Source: Bacteroidales bacterium
GTDB lineage: Bacteria; Bacteroidota; Bacteroidia; Bacteroidales; F082
Reading direction: 5' to 3'
Assembly (NCBI GenBank): GCA_016290215.1
Contig: JAEETH010000006.1
Location: 40,866 to 104,865, forward strand
Length of the DNA stretch: 64,000 nucleotides
Shown here: positions 153 through 14,979 of the stretch, piece after piece
Numbering within the stretch: the stretch's first letter is position 1
How the letters are laid out: each line of letters begins with the position of its first letter
The notes under the pieces: model-generated
What the model saw: the letters and a program-made list of their open reading frames with translations, nothing else
Told to the model about the DNA's origin: nothing
Databases searched by the model: none
Made by a program: the position numbers and the translations under genes

Positions 153-2099
153 TTATGCATCTGCATCTTTTTGTTTTGCCCGGTATTTTTGTCTTGGATG
201 ATTGGGAATGTTCTCATACATTTTTTCTATGACATCTGTCATTTGAGGTAAAATCTTATTTCTAAGATACTTCCTGTCTCGTCCAATAAAAGCGGAAATG
301 TCATCCAGTGTACGCCATTCAGCACAATATTCAACAATTATTTTTCTCAACATTTCCCTTGAAAAGTGTTTTTTTGAGGTTGCCACCTTTTGGTCAGAGG
401 TTGCCACCTTTTGGTCAGAGGTTGCCACCTTTTGGTCAGAGGTTGCCACCTTTTGGTCGGAGGTTGCCACCTTTTGGTCGGAGGTTGCCACCTTTTGGTC
501 GGAGGTTGCCACCTTTTGGTCGGAGGTTGCAACCTTTTGGTCGGAGGTTGCAACCTTTTGGTCAGAGGTTGCAACCTTTTCCATCGAATTCACATCCATA
601 CCATATACATGATATCTGGTTCCTCTTCCGCGTCCCGAAGATACCAACAACTGTTGAGAACACATCTTACTTAACATTTTTGTGATGTCTGCCCGATGCA
701 TATTTAACGCATACTGCAGACGTTCATTTGTAATTTCCTCTTCCGAGTATGCCAATGCCAAAGTTAAGAGTTGTTCGTGCGGAACCTGCTCCAATTGATC
801 TCCAAAGTGTTCAGATAACCCATTTTTAACTTCCTCATCCAACATTGATTCCATCGACATTGTTAGTACAACCTTGTTTGGTTTGCTTTTTTCTTCAATA
901 TATGGACGCTTCCAGTTCAATTCTTCCCACCCACGAATAATTTTGTCTGCACCACTACCCGCTTTTTCCGCAGACCCCAAGAATGTAAACATGGTTTGAA
1001 GATATTTGTTTCTGCATACACTTTCACCCCCTTTGTAATACTGTTTCAGTGAAATCAACATGATGCCTGGATTTGAGAAAACCATCTTATTGGGATATTT
1101 ATAGATGTTTAACGAGGCGTTTTCCGTGTAATCCGCATGAACCAATGCATTTGCCAACGCTTCTCTGACTGCCACATGAGCAGGTGTTTCGGTTTTTCTT
1201 TGATTACCTTCCAACATAAAAGGCTTTGGCAAGAAATTTTGAAGCACAGGCAACACCCGACTGTAAAACTGAAACAAATTTGACTCCCAGTTTCCATCAG
1301 GACAAATGCGATTTATCCACCTGTCTTGGGGATCTTGGATTTCTTGATAATCAGGAAAGAAATTAGGATTCTCATCCATAATGGCACTATAGGTTCCGAA
1401 CATCAAAAGTCCAGCATACGTCAAGCCATATTCTCCAGTTTTTCTGTCTTTTCTGAACACATTCAGTTTCTCCAAAAAAACGTCCTCCGACAATGCATTC
1501 CATACATGGTCTGGATTCCATTGTTCAAATCTGCGGCGATACTGTTTGATTGATTCTGGGTCTAAATCTTTCTTACCAAAATTCTTTAGAATTCTTCCAT
1601 CTATGGGACTTGACAGATTTGCATCGGCAAACATACTATTGATTTCCTCCCGAGAACAATGGTAATCACCATCAAGGTCACGCCTGAAGGTTCCTGTGTA
1701 AGGGTCAAGCCCGCAATAGACAGGCCTCAGACTCCTATCAACCCTTGGAATATAGAAAAACAAGAAATAAGCTCCGTTAAACTCAACCGCCTGTACATCA
1801 TCTTCTTGCAACAACGCAATATTAACAACTTGTTTGTTGTGTATTCCGTTGAAGAAATCTTTTTTATATTTCTTCACCTGTTCTTTTGTGAGTCCATCGA
1901 GAAAGAACTGATCGTCTTTCTCCTTAATGCCAAAAACAATAGCTCCACCATTTGTATTGGCAAACGATGAATAGGTCTCCCACATCGAATGCGGGAAACC
2001 GCCTTTTGCCGTCTTGAACTCCATATCACCAGACTCTTTATCTTGCAATAGCTGTTCTAACACTGGCTGTAAATCTTCATATTCGTAGATTCGTTTCAT
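153..2099 (-). CDS. AlbA_2 (Schlafen-type) DNA-binding / divergent ATPase transcriptional regulator-like protein with VATSDQK repeats
   Basis: 648 residues. The first 150 residues fit the AlbA_2 (divergent AAA-4) domain, with ESGDMEFK and FANTNGGAIVFGI as typical motifs. Residues around 310-420 fit the HATPase_c_4 domain (HVAVREALANALVHADY, GSADKI-like GSGADKIIRGW). A winged-helix region follows, then a stretch of ten VATS units (nine full VATSDQK heptads, encoded at 376-585), and a lysine-rich C-terminal helix-turn-helix-like end. The family is widespread and mostly uncharacterised; some members are regulators or sit in defence islands. The gene is visibly richer in A/T than the pigment genes on both sides and has its own promoter, which suggests it was inserted between two pigment operons. 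Function unknown. Confidence 0.85.
   Translation of the reverse strand: MKRIYEYEDLQPVLEQLLQDKESGDMEFKTAKGGFPHSMWETYSSFANTNGGAIVFGIKEKDDQFFLDGLTKEQVKKYKKDFFNGIHNKQVVNIALLQEDDVQAVEFNGAYFLFFYIPRVDRSLRPVYCGLDPYTGTFRRDLDGDYHCSREEINSMFADANLSSPIDGRILKNFGKKDLDPESIKQYRRRFEQWNPDHVWNALSEDVFLEKLNVFRKDRKTGEYGLTYAGLLMFGTYSAIMDENPNFFPDYQEIQDPQDRWINRICPDGNWESNLFQFYSRVLPVLQNFLPKPFMLEGNQRKTETPAHVAVREALANALVHADYTENASLNIYKYPNKMVFSNPGIMLISLKQYYKGGESVCRNKYLQTMFTFLGSAEKAGSGADKIIRGWEELNWKRPYIEEKSKPNKVVLTMSMESMLDEEVKNGLSEHFGDQLEQVPHEQLLTLALAYSEEEITNERLQYALNMHRADITKMLSKMCSQQLLVSSGRGRGTRYHVYGMDVNSMEKVATSDQKVATSDQKVATSDQKVATSDQKVATSDQKVATSDQKVATSDQKVATSDQKVATSDQKVATSKKHFSREMLRKIIVEYCAEWRTLDDISAFIGRDRKYLRNKILPQMTDVIEKMYENIPNHPRQKYRAKQKDADA
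376..585 (-). repeat. 21-bp coding tandem repeat (10 units) in the AlbA_2 gene
   Basis: Ten consecutive 21-bp units, nine encoding VATSDQK and the last VATSKKH. Units come in two codon forms (GTTGCAACC near the start of the array, GTGGCAACC later) and a further G/A variation, so they have diverged in blocks. The length is a multiple of three, so unit gain or loss would keep the frame. The array is open in several frames on both strands, which produces spurious overlapping ORFs. Confidence 0.97.
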
Positions 2100-2841: not shown

Positions 2842-3201
2842 TCATTTCATGATTAGGAAACACCCCAACACTACAAGAACCAGGCCAATCCACCGCGAGA
2901 AAGGGATGCTCTCGCCGAAGACAAGCCAGGCGGCAATCATGCCGAACACAAACGAGAGGCTGGTTAGAGGATAAGCTTGACTAAACGGGAATTTTTTCAG
3001 GATATACAGCCATAGCACCGTGGCAAAACCGAAACTGATGCCGCAAGCCAGCAGCCACCAGTCGGTAAGCACGCTTTTGAAATAAGCCCACGTCCATTCA
3101 AACTTGCCAAGTTGCTGCATGGCCAATTTGAGCAGCACTTGTCCTCCACAAAGGAAAAAAGACTGTAAAGCTACCAAACCAATTATTCTCCACATAATCA
3201 A
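2842..3201 (-). CDS. Small DMT/EamA-type (ArnE/SMR-like) membrane protein
   Basis: 119 residues with four predicted membrane helices (about 5-23, 44-65, 75-95, 100-117). Motifs GGQVLLKLA and YPLTSLSFVFGMIAAWLVFGE are characteristic of the small multidrug resistance / ArnE-ArnF branch of the drug-metabolite superfamily, which includes lipid-sugar flippase subunits. Its start overlaps the stop of the ketosynthase fusion by four bases (ATGA type), so it is translationally coupled. A role in moving a lipid intermediate of the pigment across the inner membrane is inferred from position only. Such proteins act as dimers, and only one gene is seen here. Confidence 0.75.
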   Translation of the reverse strand: MIMWRIIGLVALQSFFLCGGQVLLKLAMQQLGKFEWTWAYFKSVLTDWWLLACGISFGFATVLWLYILKKFPFSQAYPLTSLSFVFGMIAAWLVFGESIPFSRWIGLVLVVLGCFLIMK

Positions 3202-5522
3202 GCCTCCAATAAGGTTAATGAAACATTCTTGCCGTCGGTGCGATTATACAACAGGATGCACTTGGGCTGTTTGTCGTTAACTTCCTTGGGATCCACGAAC
3301 AACGCAGCCGGCACGCGACCCGCTTTGAGGCATTGTGCCGCAACATACAAACCTATGCCTGACGAAGTGAAACTCTCGCCAAAGAGGTGTTTGTATTTCA
3401 GCAAAGGCTTGCCGCCGAAAAGAAGCTTGGTTTCTTTCAGGTAGGCCTCATCATTGCCGTGGTCGCCACTGATGCCTGTAAGGATGTAGTCCACGTCGGC
3501 AAGGGATTTGCCTGCGTTTTGAAGCATTCTCGCAAGGCTATCTTGCATGGTGTCTGTCGTGGGCTGGTGGAGCATTTGGAAGCCTGTGAGTTTACATAAA
3601 ATCTGAGGTCCATGAGCTTGTCGAAGGGCCGATTCATTCTGTAACGGCGTTTCGACAGGCTCAACGACCTGATGTAATGGCTTGTGCGAAATCACAATAG
3701 AAACAGCACTCTCACCACACATCTCATCGTCGTGACCCATCACACCGCCTTTTTTCAGGATATGATAGAAGGTCTCCGTCATCTCGTCGTGACCGCCCAC
3801 CAATGCGGTATTGATTTTGCCGAGCTTGAACTGCCACCAAGCGTCCTGCAAGGCACTATCGAACGAGATGCTCTTATGGGCGTAGGTGACGTTATAACCA
3901 TGATTCTTGGTCTGTATGGCCACCAACGAGCTGATGGTGTTGTGCGTCGACTGCATGAAATAGGTGGGTTTCAGCATCTGCTCGCCGTCGTTGGAGAGCG
4001 CATCCAAGAAAAACTCGGTGTTTTCGATGCAGCCATAGCCCGTACCGGTGATGATTGCGTCAACGGTGTCCAAACCTGCTTCTTTTAATGCCTCTTTCGA
4101 TGTAGCCAAGGCGCGTTTCAAAATCTTTCCCATGCGCCGCGCCTCAATGGGCGACACATATTCCTTGAAGCTCGGGTCGATGGAACGAGTGAAAGGAACA
4201 TCGTATTCTATGGGTTCCTGCATCCACGCCTCGGTCAAAGGCTGCTGGAGGGAGATTTGCTTGGCGGAGAGGATATAACAGGTTGCTGAGCCTGTCGAAG
4301 CACCGTCATTTTTAGTCGGCCCTTCGACAAGCTCAGGGACCTTAGAAATCAGCAGCGACGAGTCATTGCCGCCAAAGCCGAAGGCGTTGCACAAAACATG
4401 CTTCAGTTCTTTCTTGGTTGGCTGCGAAACAGGTAAGATGCCGTCTTCCATGGCCTGCGACCAGTTGAGGTTGACAGGCAGGAAGCCGTTTTGCAAGGCC
4501 AAGATACAGAAAACCGCCTCTATGGACCCCGAAGCACTCGTTGTATGCCCTGTGAATGGCTTGGTTGATGACACTGGCGGCACGTTTTCGCCAAAAAGGC
4601 GTATCATGGCTTGGCTTTCGCTGGCGTCGTTGTTGGGCGTGCCCGTGCCATGCGCGTTGATGTAATCGATGTCGGAAGGCTGCAAACCAGCAAGTTGCAA
4701 AGCCTCGCTCATCGCACGATAAGCCCCTTCGCCATCGGGCGACGAGGCGGTTTGATGGAAAGCGTCGCAAGCGTTGCCATAGCCCGAAAGCAGGGCTTGG
4801 GCAGTCACGCCGCGACGTTTTGCACTTTCTGCCGATTCCAAAACTATGTAAGCTGCACCTTCGCCAAGATTCAAGCCGTGACGTGTGGCGTCGAAAGGAC
4901 GACAAGGCTCGGTGTCGAGAATCATCAGCGAGTTGAAGCCATTGAGGTGGAACTTGGTGATGCACTCACTACCTCCCACTACTACGATGTCGGCTTCGCC
5001 ACAGCGTATCATATTGGCACCCAAGATGATGGCATTGGCCGCTGAAGAACAGGCGGTGGAAAGTGTTGTAGTAAAGGCGAACTTGCCAAAGTGGTTGGCG
5101 GTCATTTCGGAACAGCTGCCGCAGTCATGCACCTTTATATATTCTTTGTGGGCTTCGTTGTGGATGTAATCGAGATAGAACTGCTCGCTCATGTCCATGC
5201 CCCCCACAGTGGTGCCCGAGATGAAACCTACCTTGGATAGCATGTCTTTGGTCAGCTGTGCTTCTTCCAAAGCCTCACCCAATGCTAACATACCCATCAG
5301 CGCAGTGCGCGTGGTGACGGCATCTTGCGGGATACCCAAACGCTCACGCATCTCCGCATCGGTCAGCTTCACCTCGCCGACGGGAAACTCCTTGTGTTCC
5401 GTCTTGAGGTAACGCAGTTGCCCCACCCCCGACTTGCCGCTGAGTAAAGCCTCCAAGGTTTCCGCCTTGTTCAAGCCAATCGCCGAAACGACGCCCGTGC
5501 CTGTAATCAGAATCGGCTCCAT
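3198..5522 (-). CDS. Fused beta-ketoacyl-ACP synthase / catalytically empty ketosynthase (chain-length-factor-like)
   Basis: 774 residues holding two ketosynthase folds. The first (1-393) is complete: Cys158 in STACSS, His291 in NAHGTGT, His326 in TGHTTSASG. The second (about 416-774) keeps the fold (GTGYGCIENTEF, NTALVGG, SSGIGLYVAAQCL) but has lost all three catalytic residues: the Cys region reads YAHKSISF, the first His region TGISGDHG and the second FGESFTSS. This is the KS/CLF arrangement of aryl-polyene and type II polyketide systems, here in one chain. The linker (about 394-415: VPELVEGP...GASTGSAT) and a loop in the second domain (about 618-639: VVEPVET...RQAHGP) are encoded by a dispersed REP-like repeat. 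It would extend the polyene chain on the neighbouring ACP. Confidence 0.88.
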   Translation of the reverse strand: MEPILITGTGVVSAIGLNKAETLEALLSGKSGVGQLRYLKTEHKEFPVGEVKLTDAEMRERLGIPQDAVTTRTALMGMLALGEALEEAQLTKDMLSKVGFISGTTVGGMDMSEQFYLDYIHNEAHKEYIKVHDCGSCSEMTANHFGKFAFTTTLSTACSSAANAIILGANMIRCGEADIVVVGGSECITKFHLNGFNSLMILDTEPCRPFDATRHGLNLGEGAAYIVLESAESAKRRGVTAQALLSGYGNACDAFHQTASSPDGEGAYRAMSEALQLAGLQPSDIDYINAHGTGTPNNDASESQAMIRLFGENVPPVSSTKPFTGHTTSASGSIEAVFCILALQNGFLPVNLNWSQAMEDGILPVSQPTKKELKHVLCNAFGFGGNDSSLLISKVPELVEGPTKNDGASTGSATCYILSAKQISLQQPLTEAWMQEPIEYDVPFTRSIDPSFKEYVSPIEARRMGKILKRALATSKEALKEAGLDTVDAIITGTGYGCIENTEFFLDALSNDGEQMLKPTYFMQSTHNTISSLVAIQTKNHGYNVTYAHKSISFDSALQDAWWQFKLGKINTALVGGHDEMTETFYHILKKGGVMGHDDEMCGESAVSIVISHKPLHQVVEPVETPLQNESALRQAHGPQILCKLTGFQMLHQPTTDTMQDSLARMLQNAGKSLADVDYILTGISGDHGNDEAYLKETKLLFGGKPLLKYKHLFGESFTSSGIGLYVAAQCLKAGRVPAALFVDPKEVNDKQPKCILLYNRTDGKNVSLTLLEA
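3607..3670. repeat. REP-like dispersed element inside the second ketosynthase domain
   Basis: Two arms of the element face each other around an 18-base spacer: one arm contains GAGCTTGTCGAAGGGCC, the other TTTCGACAGGCTCAACGACC. It is read in frame and adds about 21 residues (VVEPVET ... LRQAHGP) to the host protein. The same element occurs at 4,281, 12,572, 37,311 and 60,088. Confidence 0.9.
4281..4341. repeat. REP-like dispersed element forming the ketosynthase fusion linker
   Basis: Inverted pair of arms (CTGAGCCTGTCGAAGCACC and GGCCCTTCGACAAGCTCAGG) separated by 13 bases. It is read in frame and codes for residues about 394-415, exactly between the two ketosynthase domains. Confidence 0.9.
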
Positions 5523-5527
5523 TGTTG

Positions 5528-5785
5528 TTATTTGGTGCGATTCTTTTGGATGTAATCGGCCATCACAGCCACCGACTTGAAGATTTCCTTGCCTTGTGAC
5601 GGGTCTTTCAGCTTGATGCCGTAATTCTTCTCCATCAGCACGATAAGTTCAAGGGCATCGATGGAGTCGAGGCCGAGGCCTTCGCCAAACAGCGAGGCGT
5701 TCTCGTCGATGTCTTCTGGGGTCATGTCTTCAAGGTTCAAGGCCTCGATGATTTGTTGTTTCAGGGTGTAGATTAATTCGTCCAT
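5528..5785 (-). CDS. Acyl carrier protein (pigment cluster)
   Basis: 85 residues, the usual ACP size, with the phosphopantetheine attachment serine in GLDSIDALELIVLME. Acidic, four-helix pattern. It sits five bases upstream of the KS fusion, suggesting that it carries the growing chain for that enzyme. A second ACP is encoded at 9,315, so the pathway probably uses one for starter loading and one for extension, or one for pigment and one for lipid transfer; the sequence does not decide which. Confidence 0.93.
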   Translation of the reverse strand: MDELIYTLKQQIIEALNLEDMTPEDIDENASLFGEGLGLDSIDALELIVLMEKNYGIKLKDPSQGKEIFKSVAVMADYIQKNRTK

Positions 5786-9646: not shown

Positions 9647-10750
9647 TTAACTGCCAACTGTCTTGCAGACCATAATGCTATGTCCTTGGCCGAGGTTATC
9701 GTGAATCGTTTCCACCTGCAATCCAGCCTTTTCGACCAAACGAGTCATGTCGTCGCTGTGGTACATCTTACTGTTGCCGTTGGCCATTGCGGTGAAATAA
9801 AGGCTCGTCATTGTGAGGCAAAAGGCAGCTGTCTCGAAGCGTTGCCTATCCCACAAGGTTTCCATGATATACAGGCGGCTGTTACCATCCATGATTTTGG
9901 CGGCGCGACTGACGATGCTGACAATTTCATCCTCACCAAAGCAATCGAGGAACTGGCTCATCCAGATGACATCGTAATGTTTGTCCGTTGGGAAAGGCTT
10001 GGAGGCATCCAAGAGGTTCATGCCATAGCCGTCAATGCGGTCGGCACCCGGCTGACCAGCAGTGGCTTGACGCATCATCTCCAACTGTTGCGGCAGGTCA
10101 ACGATGGTTACTTGTACGTCTTTGTCATACCCTACGCACTGCAAGGCCCAACGGCCTGTGTTGCCACCCACATCGAGCAAGGTATTAGGCTTGTTGGCAA
10201 ACACGATTTCAAGCGCTTGCTGGAATGAGCTGTCGCTGTAGAAATGGTCGAAACCGAACCAACTTTTCTGCACTTGTGGCGGCAGTTGCGACAAGCCTTC
10301 ATATATCGTTGGCCAGGGGCCAAAATGCCCCAATCCCGCGGGACGACCTTCTTTCAGGCTTTCCTCCAAATGAAACCAGCCTTCATAGTTCACGTCGTGG
10401 TTGAACTCGGTGTTCACATCGGTGGCGCGGTCGGTAATGAAGCACCAACCCGTCTTGCTCAAAGTGTAACGGTCTGTTTCTGTGTCAATAAGCACCGTGC
10501 CGATGCACAAGCTTGCTTCGAGCATCACCTTGGCGGCATAACTGCTGATATTAGCTTCCTTGGCCACTTCGGCTTCGGTCATGCCGTTGTCGCTGTTGCG
10601 CAGCATCTCGAAAATGCCGAATTTTTTCATCAAGCGGCTCACTTGAAACACTATCGGTCCCCAGGCAATCCATTCCGCTTTGGCCTGCGCCTCACGGGCT
10701 GTTAAATGCTCTTTACTATAAGCCTCTTTTAATTTAGGTGTAAGATGCAT
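9647..10750 (-). CDS. SAM-dependent O-methyltransferase (plant-type, Methyltransf_2)
   Basis: 367 residues. N-terminal dimerisation/winged-helix region (1-150: FEMLRNSDNGMTEAEVAKEANISSYAAKVMLEASLCIG), then the SAM motif LLDVGGNTGRWALQ, acidic ribose-binding VTIVDLPQQLEMM, and post-motifs DVIWMSQFLDCF and YIMETLWD. Fits the small-molecule O-methyltransferase family. In this cluster the likely target is the phenolic ring of the aryl head group, giving a methoxy end as in some flexirubins and aryl polyenes. C- or carboxyl methylation cannot be excluded. Confidence 0.85.
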   Translation of the reverse strand: MHLTPKLKEAYSKEHLTAREAQAKAEWIAWGPIVFQVSRLMKKFGIFEMLRNSDNGMTEAEVAKEANISSYAAKVMLEASLCIGTVLIDTETDRYTLSKTGWCFITDRATDVNTEFNHDVNYEGWFHLEESLKEGRPAGLGHFGPWPTIYEGLSQLPPQVQKSWFGFDHFYSDSSFQQALEIVFANKPNTLLDVGGNTGRWALQCVGYDKDVQVTIVDLPQQLEMMRQATAGQPGADRIDGYGMNLLDASKPFPTDKHYDVIWMSQFLDCFGEDEIVSIVSRAAKIMDGNSRLYIMETLWDRQRFETAAFCLTMTSLYFTAMANGNSKMYHSDDMTRLVEKAGLQVETIHDNLGQGHSIMVCKTVGS

Positions 10751-11323: not shown

Positions 11324-12565
11324 TTATATGGATTTTATCACTAAAGCAGAATTGGTTCCTCCAAATCCAAAGGAATTGGAAAGGATGGTTTTCAGCTCTT
11401 TAGAGGTCGTCGTGTTAACGATATTGAGACCTTCAGAGTATTCGTCAGGATGCTCAAAGTTGATGTTGGGGGCAATGAAACCGCCTTGCATCATAAGGAT
11501 GCAGTAAACAATCTCGCTCGCACCCGCCATCCAACACTCATGACCCGTCATCGACTTGGTAGACGAAATAGGTGTTTGTGTCGGGCCGAAAAGCCGCTTC
11601 AGCGCCAATGCCTCAAACATGTCGCCTTGTGGTGTAGAGGTGGCATGGGCATTGACATAGTCGATGTCTTCGGCCTTCACGCCAGCTTCATTCATGGCGC
11701 GGGTCATGGCACGATAGCAGCCGTCTTCGCTGGGTTGCGAGATGTGGCTTTCGCCATTCGAAGAGAAGCCGTAGCCGCACACTTCGGCCAAAATGGTGGC
11801 ACCGCGAGCCACGGCATGGTCGTAATCTTCAAGCACCAAGGCCGCTGCACCACCACTGGGTACAAGACCGTCGCGGTCACGGTCGAAGGGACGCGAAGCC
11901 TTTGTCGGCTCGTCAATGCGGGTCGAGAAGGCGCTAATGCCATCAAAGCTGCCCATTGAGAGATAATTGGTCTCTTGTGCACCGCCACAAAGCACCATGT
12001 CCTGTAAACCGTTACGAATCAGCAACGCACCCAAACCGATGGAATGTGAGCCGCTGGCGCAAGCCGCACTGATGGTCATGTTGATACCTTTTAGGTGGAA
12101 GATAGTGGAAAGATTCATCGTCACCGTCGAGTTCATCGACTGGAAAATGGCCGCAGAGCCAACAAGTGTGGTGTCTTTTTTCTCCAAAATGGTCTCATGC
12201 GAATCGATGACCGCTTTGGCTGATGAGTCGTTGCCAAACAACACACCTACTTCGTTTTCAAGCAGATAAGCATCATCGATACCCGCTTGTTTGAAGGCTT
12301 CCAAAGTGGCCATGTAGGCATATTCGCCCTCTTCTGCGAGATACATGCGAAGTTTGCGGTCGAGGATACCTTTTAGTTGAGGTCTTTCGACAATGCCCGT
12401 CAAAGGTGAGCGATAGCCGTATTCGGTGCGCTCAGGTTGGATGCCAATGCCCGAACGGCCTTCGCGCAACGATTGACTGACTTCTTCTTTATTTTTTCCG
12501 AGGCAAGACCAAATGCCTATGCCTGTGATGACGACTCTTCTATTGTTCATAATTTGCTTTTTCAA
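11324..12565 (-). CDS. Beta-ketoacyl-ACP synthase, FabF/FabB-like (pigment cluster)
   Basis: 413 residues (or 408 from the second ATG, MNNRRVVITG). Complete active site: Cys169 in SAACASGSHSIG, His in NAHATSTPQGD, His in TGHECWMAGAS, and C-terminal NSFGFGGTNSALV. It is the third intact ketosynthase of the cluster. The gap to the ketoreductase gene upstream holds one dispersed REP-like element. FabF-type ketosynthases in such clusters may load the starter or make the C-chain. Substrate not readable from sequence. Confidence 0.9.
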   Translation of the reverse strand: MKKQIMNNRRVVITGIGIWSCLGKNKEEVSQSLREGRSGIGIQPERTEYGYRSPLTGIVERPQLKGILDRKLRMYLAEEGEYAYMATLEAFKQAGIDDAYLLENEVGVLFGNDSSAKAVIDSHETILEKKDTTLVGSAAIFQSMNSTVTMNLSTIFHLKGINMTISAACASGSHSIGLGALLIRNGLQDMVLCGGAQETNYLSMGSFDGISAFSTRIDEPTKASRPFDRDRDGLVPSGGAAALVLEDYDHAVARGATILAEVCGYGFSSNGESHISQPSEDGCYRAMTRAMNEAGVKAEDIDYVNAHATSTPQGDMFEALALKRLFGPTQTPISSTKSMTGHECWMAGASEIVYCILMMQGGFIAPNINFEHPDEYSEGLNIVNTTTSKELKTILSNSFGFGGTNSALVIKSI

Positions 12566-12571
12566 GTCGGC

Positions 12572-12618
12572 GTTTCGACAGGCTCAACGACCTAGGTCCC
12601 TGAGCCCGTCGAAGGGCC
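12572..12618. repeat. REP-like dispersed element, intergenic copy
   Basis: Two arms in tandem (TTTCGACAGGCTCAACGACC and, from 12,595, GTCCCTGAGCCCGTCGAAGG) fill most of the 58-base gap between the ketoreductase and ketosynthase genes. This is the only intergenic copy seen; the others lie within coding sequences. Confidence 0.9.
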
Positions 12619-12623
12619 GGTTT

Positions 12624-13355
12624 TTATGTGTATAACCCTCCGTTGATGGAAATGACTTGTCCCGTAATGTATGCCGACTCATCGGATGCCAAAAAACTCG
12701 TCAAGGCGGCCACTTCCTCGGGTTTGCCGAAACGTCCTAATGGGATGAGTTTCTTCAACTCGGTTTCGTCGAGTTCCTTGGTCATGTCGGTGGCAATAAA
12801 TCCAGGTGCAATAGCGTTGACGGTCACCTTGCGGGCAGCCACTTCCTGCGCTAAAGCCTTGGTGGCACCAATGAGAGCTGCCTTGGCAGCGGAATAGTTG
12901 GTCTGACCAGGCAGGCCTTTCAGTCCAGACAGCGAAGCCATGTTGATGATACGTCCGTTGCGGTGCGTCATCATGTCCTTCAGCAGTCGGCGCGTGATGT
13001 AGAAAAAGCCGTTCAAAGTGGTGTCAAGCACATTGTTCCATTGCTCTTCCTGCATGAAAATCATCAAGTTATCCTGACGGATGCCCGCATTGTTGACCAA
13101 CACGGAGATGTAATCGTCAGGATGCGCCTGCGACCAAGTATCCAAAGCAGCTTCGATGGCTTGCGGGTCTGCAACATTGAAAGGCAACAGCTCGCCAGTG
13201 CCTCCAGCTTCTTGTATCTGCTTCAAAGTGTCTTCGGCAGCTTCTTTGTTGGATTGATAATTGATAATCACGGCAAAACCGTCGTTGGCCAAGCGCAAGG
13301 CGATGGCTTTTCCCAAGCCTCGTGAGGCACCAGTGATAAGGGCGTATTTTGTCAT
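12624..13355 (-). CDS. 3-oxoacyl-ACP reductase, FabG-like (pigment cluster)
   Basis: 243 residues of the classical short-chain dehydrogenase type: TGASRGLGKAIA (NADPH binding), NNAG, NMASLSG, and the catalytic YSAAK. C-terminal GQVISINGGLYT. It reduces the beta-keto group formed by the ketosynthases. The start overlaps the stop of the ammonia-lyase gene (ATGA), so it is the second gene of the operon. The genome will normally have another FabG for fatty acids; the position marks this as the pigment copy. Confidence 0.92.
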   Translation of the reverse strand: MTKYALITGASRGLGKAIALRLANDGFAVIINYQSNKEAAEDTLKQIQEAGGTGELLPFNVADPQAIEAALDTWSQAHPDDYISVLVNNAGIRQDNLMIFMQEEQWNNVLDTTLNGFFYITRRLLKDMMTHRNGRIINMASLSGLKGLPGQTNYSAAKAALIGATKALAQEVAARKVTVNAIAPGFIATDMTKELDETELKKLIPLGRFGKPEEVAALTSFLASDESAYITGQVISINGGLYT

Positions 13356-14890
13356 TTCAGTTTCAATGGATTGGTTTTCAGATAGTTTTCAACGGCAGCA
13401 ATTTCCTTGTAGAATGGCGTGTCTTCGATAAAGAGCGGTATGATTTCGCGCACCTTGTCGTAGACCCTGCGAGAAGTCGGGCAAAGTTTGTCGGCAATCT
13501 TCAGGCAGTCAGTGGCCTGCGCCAAAGCGATGTATTGGATAGCCATCACCTGGAAGCAGTTTTCGACCACTTGCTTGCAGAGCAAGGCACTATTGGTACC
13601 CATACTGACAATGTCCTGGTTGTCGTTGTTGTTCGGGATACTATGCACGTAGTTAGGCATAGCCAAAGTCTGACATTCGGCAGTCGTCGAAGTGGCCGTA
13701 AACTGGCAAGCCTGCATGCCGTAGTTCAGCCCTAATGTGCCAAGATTGAGGAATGGGGGCAGAATGCCGTTGATGCGGTCGTGGAACAGGTAGTTCAGCT
13801 GACGTTCGGCAGTCATGCAGAGACGCACAAGGGCGATTTTCACCTTGTCTTCCTCCAATGAAATATAGTCGCCGTGGAAGTTGCCACCATGGTAGACATA
13901 TTCCGTCTCTGGGTCGACGATAGGATTGTCACAGGCCGAATTTAGTTCATCTTCAAGGATTTGGCGCGTGTATTTCAACGTGTCGTAAATAGGACCTAAA
14001 ATCTGAGGTGTGCAACGCAATGAATAATAGGCTTGCACCTTGTGTTCAAACACCTTCACGTCGGAATGGCCATAGTCGTAGAGTTCATGGGCACGTTTCT
14101 TGAGGCATTGCGAGCCTTCAGAAAGTTGGCGCAAACGACGTGCAATCTCTTGCTGACCTTCGTGGCGGCGGCAGTTGTTTTCGCCTTCCGACATATAGTC
14201 GTCGAATGAAGAAGCGATTTCATTCATCCAAACCGCAGCTAAGGTGGCCCAATCGAGCAAAGTCTCGGCGTTGAACAGGTTGATGACACTGATACCTGTC
14301 ATCACGGAGGTGCCATTGGTGATGGAGAGACCCTCGCGGATGTGCATTTTCAGTGGTGTCAGACCTAATTGTTTCATCACCTCGCCGGCATTGCGCCATT
14401 CACCTTTATAGTGTACTTCGCCTTCACCGATAAGGCAGAGCGCGATATGTGCCAGCTGCACCAAGTCGCCACTGGCACCCACGCTACCATGCATGGGAAT
14501 GAAAGGATAAATCTCGTGGTTGATGAACTCCACAAGCAGTTTCACCACGTCGGAATGCACCCCTGAGCGGCATTGCAACACTGTGCCCAAGCGGGCAATC
14601 ATGGCCGACTTCACATAGATGTCGCCCAAAGGCTCGCCTGCACCCGTGGAATGGCTACGGATGATATTATATTGTAAATCAGTAAGATATTTGTCGTCAA
14701 CACGCCATTGTGCCATCGGACCAAAGCCCGTATTGATGCCATAGATGACTTTTTCGGCGGCAAACTTTTCCAAAAAACGGAAGCAAGCTTCCACGCGGGC
14801 TACCCAGGCGTCAGAAACTTGAATCTTTTCGTTTGAATACAAGACTTTCTCAACTTCTTCGAGTGTGATTCTGTCATTCAGTGTAATCAT
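13352..14890 (-). CDS. Tyrosine ammonia-lyase (MIO enzyme) making p-coumarate
   Basis: 512 residues from MITLNDRIT; upstream ATGs (14,962) precede the promoter box. MIO-forming Ala139-Ser140-Gly141 in GSVGASGDLVQLAH, catalytic Tyr50 in VIYGINTGFG, and selectivity region LQYNIIRSHSTGAGEPL. The last is nearly the same as in the Flavobacterium johnsoniae tyrosine ammonia-lyase as I remember it, and so are YHGGNFHGDYISLE and VHSIPNNNDNQDIVSMGTN. Histidine ammonia-lyases also have Ser-His there, so histidine as substrate is the main alternative, but no hut genes are near. First gene of the long operon; it supplies the aryl starter unit. No CoA or ACP ligase for the starter is present in the window. 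Confidence 0.87.
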   Translation of the reverse strand: MITLNDRITLEEVEKVLYSNEKIQVSDAWVARVEACFRFLEKFAAEKVIYGINTGFGPMAQWRVDDKYLTDLQYNIIRSHSTGAGEPLGDIYVKSAMIARLGTVLQCRSGVHSDVVKLLVEFINHEIYPFIPMHGSVGASGDLVQLAHIALCLIGEGEVHYKGEWRNAGEVMKQLGLTPLKMHIREGLSITNGTSVMTGISVINLFNAETLLDWATLAAVWMNEIASSFDDYMSEGENNCRRHEGQQEIARRLRQLSEGSQCLKKRAHELYDYGHSDVKVFEHKVQAYYSLRCTPQILGPIYDTLKYTRQILEDELNSACDNPIVDPETEYVYHGGNFHGDYISLEEDKVKIALVRLCMTAERQLNYLFHDRINGILPPFLNLGTLGLNYGMQACQFTATSTTAECQTLAMPNYVHSIPNNNDNQDIVSMGTNSALLCKQVVENCFQVMAIQYIALAQATDCLKIADKLCPTSRRVYDKVREIIPLFIEDTPFYKEIAAVENYLKTNPLKLK

Positions 14891-14918
14891 GCGATAATAA
14901 ACTATTATAAATAATGTG

Positions 14919-14926
14919 CAAAAATA
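14919..14926 (-). promoter_or_regulatory. -7 box of the pigment operon promoter
   Basis: TATTTTTG on the minus strand, 29 bases before the ammonia-lyase start at 14,890. It supports that start over the upstream ATG. The divergent promoter at 15,001 belongs to the next gene. Confidence 0.55.
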
Positions 14927-14979
14927 GAAAAAATACCGATGTGAAGTCCTTACTTTTTCCAAAGAACAGCACTTTTGGC

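Follow-up and report, generated by a model that had tools for sequence, protein, structure and literature searches.

In aryl polyene gene clusters, the ketosynthase (KS) ApeO and its chain-length factor (CLF) ApeC are two chains, the CLF being about half the size of its KS and having a single thiolase fold (available part of PMC8358021). Palindromic repeats within genes are known from Rickettsia (PMC10969869) and from surveys of repetitive extragenic palindromes (REPs; PMC3733652), and the accessible portions of these two papers propose that in-frame intragenic palindromes are tolerated in linkers or loops. Here we describe a gene of a Bacteroidales bacterium in which a KS and a CLF-like protein are joined in one chain by a linker that a REP-like repeat encodes. 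The gene lies in a 64,000-nt stretch of contig JAEETH010000006.1 (assembly GCA_016290215.1, positions 40,866 to 104,865 of the forward strand), the whole of which we call the window. Gene fusions are mostly seen long after the event, when the origin of the linker can no longer be traced. In this group of gut bacteria, close relatives still have the KS and CLF genes apart; because fused and separate states alternate among them and the repeat is still legible, it becomes possible to test directly how a gene fusion arose.

The first half of the chain is FabF-like, with Pfam matches to ketoacyl-synt (PF00109) at residues 1-234 and to Ketoacyl-synt_C (PF02801) at residues 243-353. The second half gave a weaker KS-like match (PF13723, residues 454-600) and resembles KS domains weakly, with a best PDB E-value of 2.8e-9. 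We aligned 45 of the 58 rows formed by the window protein and 57 others (alignment A1, from which the fused row L064 is missing, as are the KS and CLF rows of L051, L056, L059, L060, L061, and L072). The catalytic residues Cys158, His291, and His326 are invariant in 34/34 KS rows. Their counterparts in the second half are Ser551 and Gly683, both from the PDB alignment, and Glu716, placed by eye (FGES vs TGHT); the CLFs of relatives have mostly Gly at the first of these positions, Gly or Ser at the second, and Glu at the third, with other residues in a few cases. The initial annotation had described a KS with an intact triad fused in one chain to a second half without it. This is confirmed for the chain, which has 774 residues, and the three triad residues lie at the positions given. 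None of the 25 NCBIfam matches listed, of 41, reaches the cut-off of its model (best 340.5 bits vs 407). An AlphaFold2 model of the whole chain has a predicted template modelling score (pTM) of 0.89 and a mean predicted local distance difference test score (pLDDT) of 82.8, with pLDDT <50 in four stretches: KS residues 107-111 and 197-216, linker residues 399-411, and a CLF loop at residues 618-637. The top PDB match of this model in Foldseek is the single-chain KS-CLF of PfaC (6riw), with a template modelling (TM) score of 0.78 by query and 0.66 by target and a root-mean-square deviation of 6.8.

The linker, residues 394-415 (KVPELVEGPTKNDGASTGSATC), comprises 22 residues and 66 nt. Apart from a few terminal bases, its DNA consists of both inverted arms of one palindrome, and as RNA it folds at -42.4 kcal/mol (z -8.7). 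A 17-base core of the arm has 24 exact copies in the window's genome, which include both single arms and inverted pairs; a 17-mer in which one base is degenerate has 88 matches, and a looser 14-mer has 147, compared to 0 for a reversed control. With the arms dispersed in this way, the proposal that a REP-like dispersed element encodes the linker was borne out. We also considered whether AAATGACGG in the linker could be a relic of an ancestral ATGA overlap between the two genes. Genome copies of the repeat at loci L206 and L214 have the same loop, however, so AAATGACGG belongs to the repeat, and this idea was rejected. REPs are mobilised by REP-associated Y1 transposases (RAYTs). Two Y1 transposases (PF01797; L225 and L226) are encoded in the same genome and might mobilise the repeats.

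To place the fused gene among its relatives, we searched 99 genomes of the window's genus, its own included, 42 of which had a CLF match at E 1e-10, and 393 genomes drawn from the order, 109 of which had a CLF match. With named GTDB contigs and fetched stretches, 114 loci were covered; 106 gave a KS-CLF pair, with 77 unique junctions. At 39 of the 77, KS and CLF lie in one reading frame. One more, L051, is fused at the junction and has a frame break later in the CLF, and was counted as fused by hand because L033 has the same junction. Since many genomes show the fused frame, it is not an assembly artefact. Other Bacteroidales lineages, beyond the window's clade, are fused as well. The initial annotation noted that KS and CLF are two separate proteins in aryl polyene and type II systems. 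Single-chain KS-CLF proteins do have precedents, in these lineages and in PfaC.

The window's clade comprises 42 loci, 28 fused and 14 with separate KS and CLF genes in the same order, so the relatives are not uniformly fused with a similar linker. All 14 separate loci are alike at the junction: the distance between shared anchor codons is exactly 32 nt, and the KS stop shares bases with an ATG that is in frame with the CLF. Strict arm patterns found a repeat in 0/14 of these junctions, and none was seen by eye either. The fused linkers span 15-53 residues (27 of 28 measured, L051 omitted), and contain a repeat in 22/28 cases by the strict patterns, or in 26/28 by a looser rule that adds the degenerate copies of L034, L039, L040, and L043. 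In aligned fused alleles, the KS and CLF codons are kept to within a few codons of the junction, and what lies between (the last KS codons, the stop, the start, and the first CLF codons) is replaced, mostly by repeat DNA. The initial annotation had suggested an insertion across a stop/start junction, and the replacement supports this without proving the order of events.

Judged by their sequences, the linkers of the clade are not one old insert, as they hold three distinct repeat families: family A in two arrangements, family B (CATTGCGGGCTTGACCCGCAATC), and family C (arrays of the GACTGCGGGACT type), with some linkers holding C plus B. By the patterns used, A is dispersed in 57/99, B in 43/99, and C in 40/99 genomes of the genus. 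The linker of L043 recurs in its own genome (12 further matches, spread over 8 places) and has no match in the genomes of 6 relatives that were searched. In L045, a member of a distant, separately fused clade, 34 nt of the linker belong to another repeat, of which the same genome contains 22 further matches. The loose pattern also labeled L046, which lies outside the clade counted, as family A, probably through a chance match.

Fused and separate loci are interleaved on the trees. A quick tree of the order with 73 rows, from which 4 of the 77 junctions (L017, L018, L020, and L064) were omitted for short CLF coverage, has 10 maximal fused groups, 7 in the window's clade and 3 outside it. For 46 of these rows (42 from the clade and 4 outgroup) we built a KS-CLF protein tree that excludes the linker and a second insert. 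On this tree the fused or separate state needs 5 changes within the clade, and an approximately unbiased (AU) test rejects a single fused clade (p-AU 4.2e-5). If fusion is assumed to be irreversible, the best tree requires 6 fusions, and 200 bootstrap trees require 6-9; under the same assumption, the order tree requires 10. Irreversibility is an argument rather than a result: because the 14 separate junctions share one 32-nt form, re-invention is unlikely to have restored it, but recombination with a separate allele could have. In a tree built from six genes of the flanks, of which one is present in only 30/46 loci, the state changes 6 times within the clade, and the separate L012/L154, L055/L056, and L053 are nested among fused loci, with L053 deeper than in the KS-CLF tree.

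We consider it probable that a REP-like palindrome replaced the stop/start junction and made the linker, and that fusion of this one pair was recurrent, with different repeat families, in the clade and elsewhere in the order. The ancestral state would have been two genes overlapping at stop and start, with a coupled supply of the partners. A REP-like palindrome would have replaced ~20-30 nt across the junction, so that the KS stop and the CLF start were lost and the two frames became one; the 66 nt of the repeat now code for a flexible linker. Of the repeats landing at this operon junction, those that cut off CLF translation would be lost, and those that were in frame and free of stops would persist as a single chain with domains still packed as KS-CLF. 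In-frame inserts would survive because KS and CLF act as a 1:1 dimer with ends that tolerate a tether; the window's linker is free of stops in two of three forward frames, which would also help in-frame survival. Fused linkers may later have taken up further repeats and recombined between species.

Several observations weigh against this account. In four pairs of loci, identity is higher between the linkers than between the flanking KS and CLF DNA: L149/L145 (98.0% vs 85.7 and 86.7), L044/L141 (88.7% vs 82.5 and 76.6), L150/L035 (81.9% vs 72.8 and 68.4), and L001/L031 (93.9% vs 80.6 and 80.6). L038/L041 is the reverse case (72.9% vs 86.3 and 86.0). Such similarity suggests either that linkers were transferred or that they were inserted from similar master copies, and fused linkers probably also move by recombination. 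The counts of 6 and 10 are therefore acquisitions of the fused state on these trees, perhaps not all of them separate insertions. Taken further, one or a few fused alleles may have spread among co-resident species by homologous recombination, with linkers exchanged on the way, such that the trees overcount fusions. On both trees L036, which has family A, groups with L139 and L145, which have C plus B, and this fits such a history; with higher linker than flank identity in more pairs, recurrent insertion is slightly less favoured and transfer slightly more. However, the repeat families of the clade number at least three, each distinct in sequence, and A occurs in two arrangements; the repeat of L043 occurs only in its own genome of the 7 searched, three fused groups lie outside the window's clade, and the flanking-gene tree also nests separate lineages among fused ones. 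Like master copies, inserting repeatedly, would also yield similar linkers. We regard few fusions with many transfers as unlikely.

Other points against insertion as the cause concern the match between repeats and fusion. L042 and L156, within the clade, are fused without a recognised repeat, as are L013/L171, L180, L046-L050, L052, L064, and L067; the linkers of all these loci were not searched for in their own genomes. The genome of L063 is rich in repeats (28 exact and 44 loose A arms) and has separate genes, six fused relatives (genomes G005, G011, G026, G467, G471, and G473) have 1-6 loose A arms genome-wide, linker included, and L069, with a repetitive insert at its junction, is unfused. 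Only 3 independent contrasts fall on well supported branches, and a sign test on them is not significant (p 0.25). Taken together, these points mean that repeats may sometimes enter an existing linker. As a separate matter, L063 and the six repeat-poor fused relatives rule out the idea that repeat load alone sets the fused or separate state.

In the stronger version of this alternative, indels fused the overlapping genes first, and the linker then became a permissive site in which repeats settled and turned over. The fused loci without recognised repeats (L042/L156, L013/L171, and L180) speak for it, and so do linkers that appear nested or replaced, such as those of L139, L145, and L149, where C has B inside. 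A CLF loop that was never a gene junction gathers repeats as well. The KS-CLF gene carries a second in-frame composite of its linker repeat there, which the initial annotation did not mention, and in A1 this loop (residues 606-656 of the chain) has inserts in 9/23 fused rows vs 0/11 separate-gene rows; the inserts differ in sequence between relatives (VEPVET.., RHCEERSN..) but occupy the same loop. Over the 28 fused loci, the arm patterns of four repeat families gave 48 matches within the linkers (2,314 bp), 14 within the CLF loop (5,460 bp), 0 elsewhere in the gene (56,346 bp), and 3 in the flanks (221,512 bp); the window itself has 4 further arm matches outside the gene. Because the loci are related to one another, and because the linkers had been seen before the repeat patterns and classes were drawn up (a point that also counts against our account), these densities are no test of independent events. 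They show where repeats persist, namely in two places of low model confidence that are probably flexible. If fusion came first, however, it is harder to see why repeats are found in 22/28 or, loosely, 26/28 fused loci and span the site of the lost stop and start, and why the repeat-free L042/L156 form a tip clade on both trees rather than lying basal to the fused loci. We think this order of events improbable. Finally, an old, stable fusion with the repeat as a chance passenger and nothing recurrent would suit a fusion that is intact and conserved across many species, but has almost no credence with us, because the trees place relatives with separate genes in among the fused loci, and because arms are far denser in linkers than in the flanks.

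Among 33 loci around A and B copies in the window's genome, family A or B repeats lie in frame in 5 named genes: topoisomerase III (L199), HemW (L222), a polyprenyl synthetase (L192), a PMT-type glycosyltransferase (L201), and a MurL-like/MurD chain (L195). These cases support the tolerance of inserts at flexible places. In L214, the same repeats lie in frame within a 130-aa open reading frame (ORF). In L195 (1858-4101, minus strand), a single open frame of 748 aa, cut at the end of the stretch, has a MurL-like domain at aa 1-190 and MurD at aa 291-739. Family A and other repeats lie in frame in the region separating the two domains, and again near the MurD C-terminus. L195 is a second candidate for a repeat-associated fusion, although its repeats may sit in the MurL tail and not at the junction. 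We suggest tentatively, with less assurance than for the KS-CLF pair, that dispersed palindromic repeats of several families are a recurrent, general gene-fusing agent in REP-rich Bacteroidales, turning the junctions of overlapping operon genes for partner proteins into linkers, several times and independently at one junction, and acting on other gene pairs (MurL-MurD) too. If true, short palindromic repeats would gain a constructive role in protein evolution, and the relatives would supply natural linker variants of a KS-CLF enzyme.

FlxA and FlxJ are encoded nearby, both above curated cut-offs, and the setting is therefore a flexirubin-type aryl polyene cluster. The fused gene probably codes for both subunits of a KS-CLF condensing enzyme of a flexirubin-type aryl polyene pathway. 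A family A pair lies at window positions 12574-12613, in the short gap upstream of a FabB-like KS gene (11324-12565). L057, L059, and L061 (G376, G220, and G309) come from genomes outside the window's genus and family, yet fall inside the gene tree of the window's clade, with L060 and L072 beside them; this placement suggests a transfer of the cluster. Elsewhere in the window, a gene at 153-2099 (minus strand), Schlafen/AlbA_2 and RecG C-terminal-like, contains nine tandem heptapeptides KVATSDQ from aa 508 on.

Features of the fused KS-CLF gene and its surroundings, in window positions.
Feature	Position	Strand	Evidence
Single-chain KS-CLF gene	3198..5522	-	One ORF, 774 aa, starts with ATG
KS half, aa 1-393, triad Cys158-His291-His326 intact	4344..5522	-	Pfam and PDB alignments
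Linker, aa 394-415, REP-like composite palindrome, family A, two inverted arms	4278..4343	-	Repeat matches, hairpin fold
CLF-like half, aa 416-774, triad positions Ser/Gly/Glu	3198..4277	-	Pfam, PDB alignment, A1
Second in-frame composite of the same repeat, CLF loop aa 619-639	3606..3668	-	pLDDT <50 at 618-637; A1
Acyl carrier protein, directly upstream in operon	5528..5785	-	PF00550
FlxJ-family methyltransferase, flexirubin-type cluster	9647..10750	-	NF053543, 603.6 bits vs cut-off 560
FlxA tyrosine ammonia-lyase, flexirubin-type cluster	13352..14962	-	NF053541, 838.9 bits vs cut-off 700

The window's repeat resembles REPs and bacterial interspersed mosaic elements (BIMEs) in being a short dispersed palindrome, present as single arms and inverted pairs and able to form a hairpin, but differs in that it is not extragenic, lying in frame in this gene and in the 5 named genes. 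With the palindromic elements of Rickettsia it shares the in-frame insertion of short palindromes into coding genes. These elements and intragenic REPs are described within single genes, and the available portions of the papers do not mention a fusion of neighbouring genes; the words "fusion" and "fused" have 0 matches in the accessible text of PMC3733652. A search of parts of the open-licence literature gave no description of repeats that fuse a single gene pair recurrently.

As for the protein, ApeO-ApeC (6QSP; available part of PMC8358021) is likewise a KS with a CLF partner from aryl polyene clusters, and 6qsp_A was among the PDB matches, but the window's CLF half has 359 aa vs 393 for its KS half, in one chain. 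PfaC, from polyunsaturated fatty acid synthases, has KS and CLF in one chain as well, with both halves matched by the window protein, and its pseudo-dimer packing is predicted for the window chain too, from the Foldseek match and the confidence of the model. PfaC belongs to a larger megasynthase with dehydratase domains in the same protein, and the window's 774 aa gave no dehydratase match (Pfam, E 0.001). The two also differ in that identity in the structural match is 16%, and in that the close relatives of the window gene still have separate genes. REPs within genes and single-chain KS-CLF proteins were thus already known, and what appears new here is the probable recurrent fusion of one gene pair by repeats.

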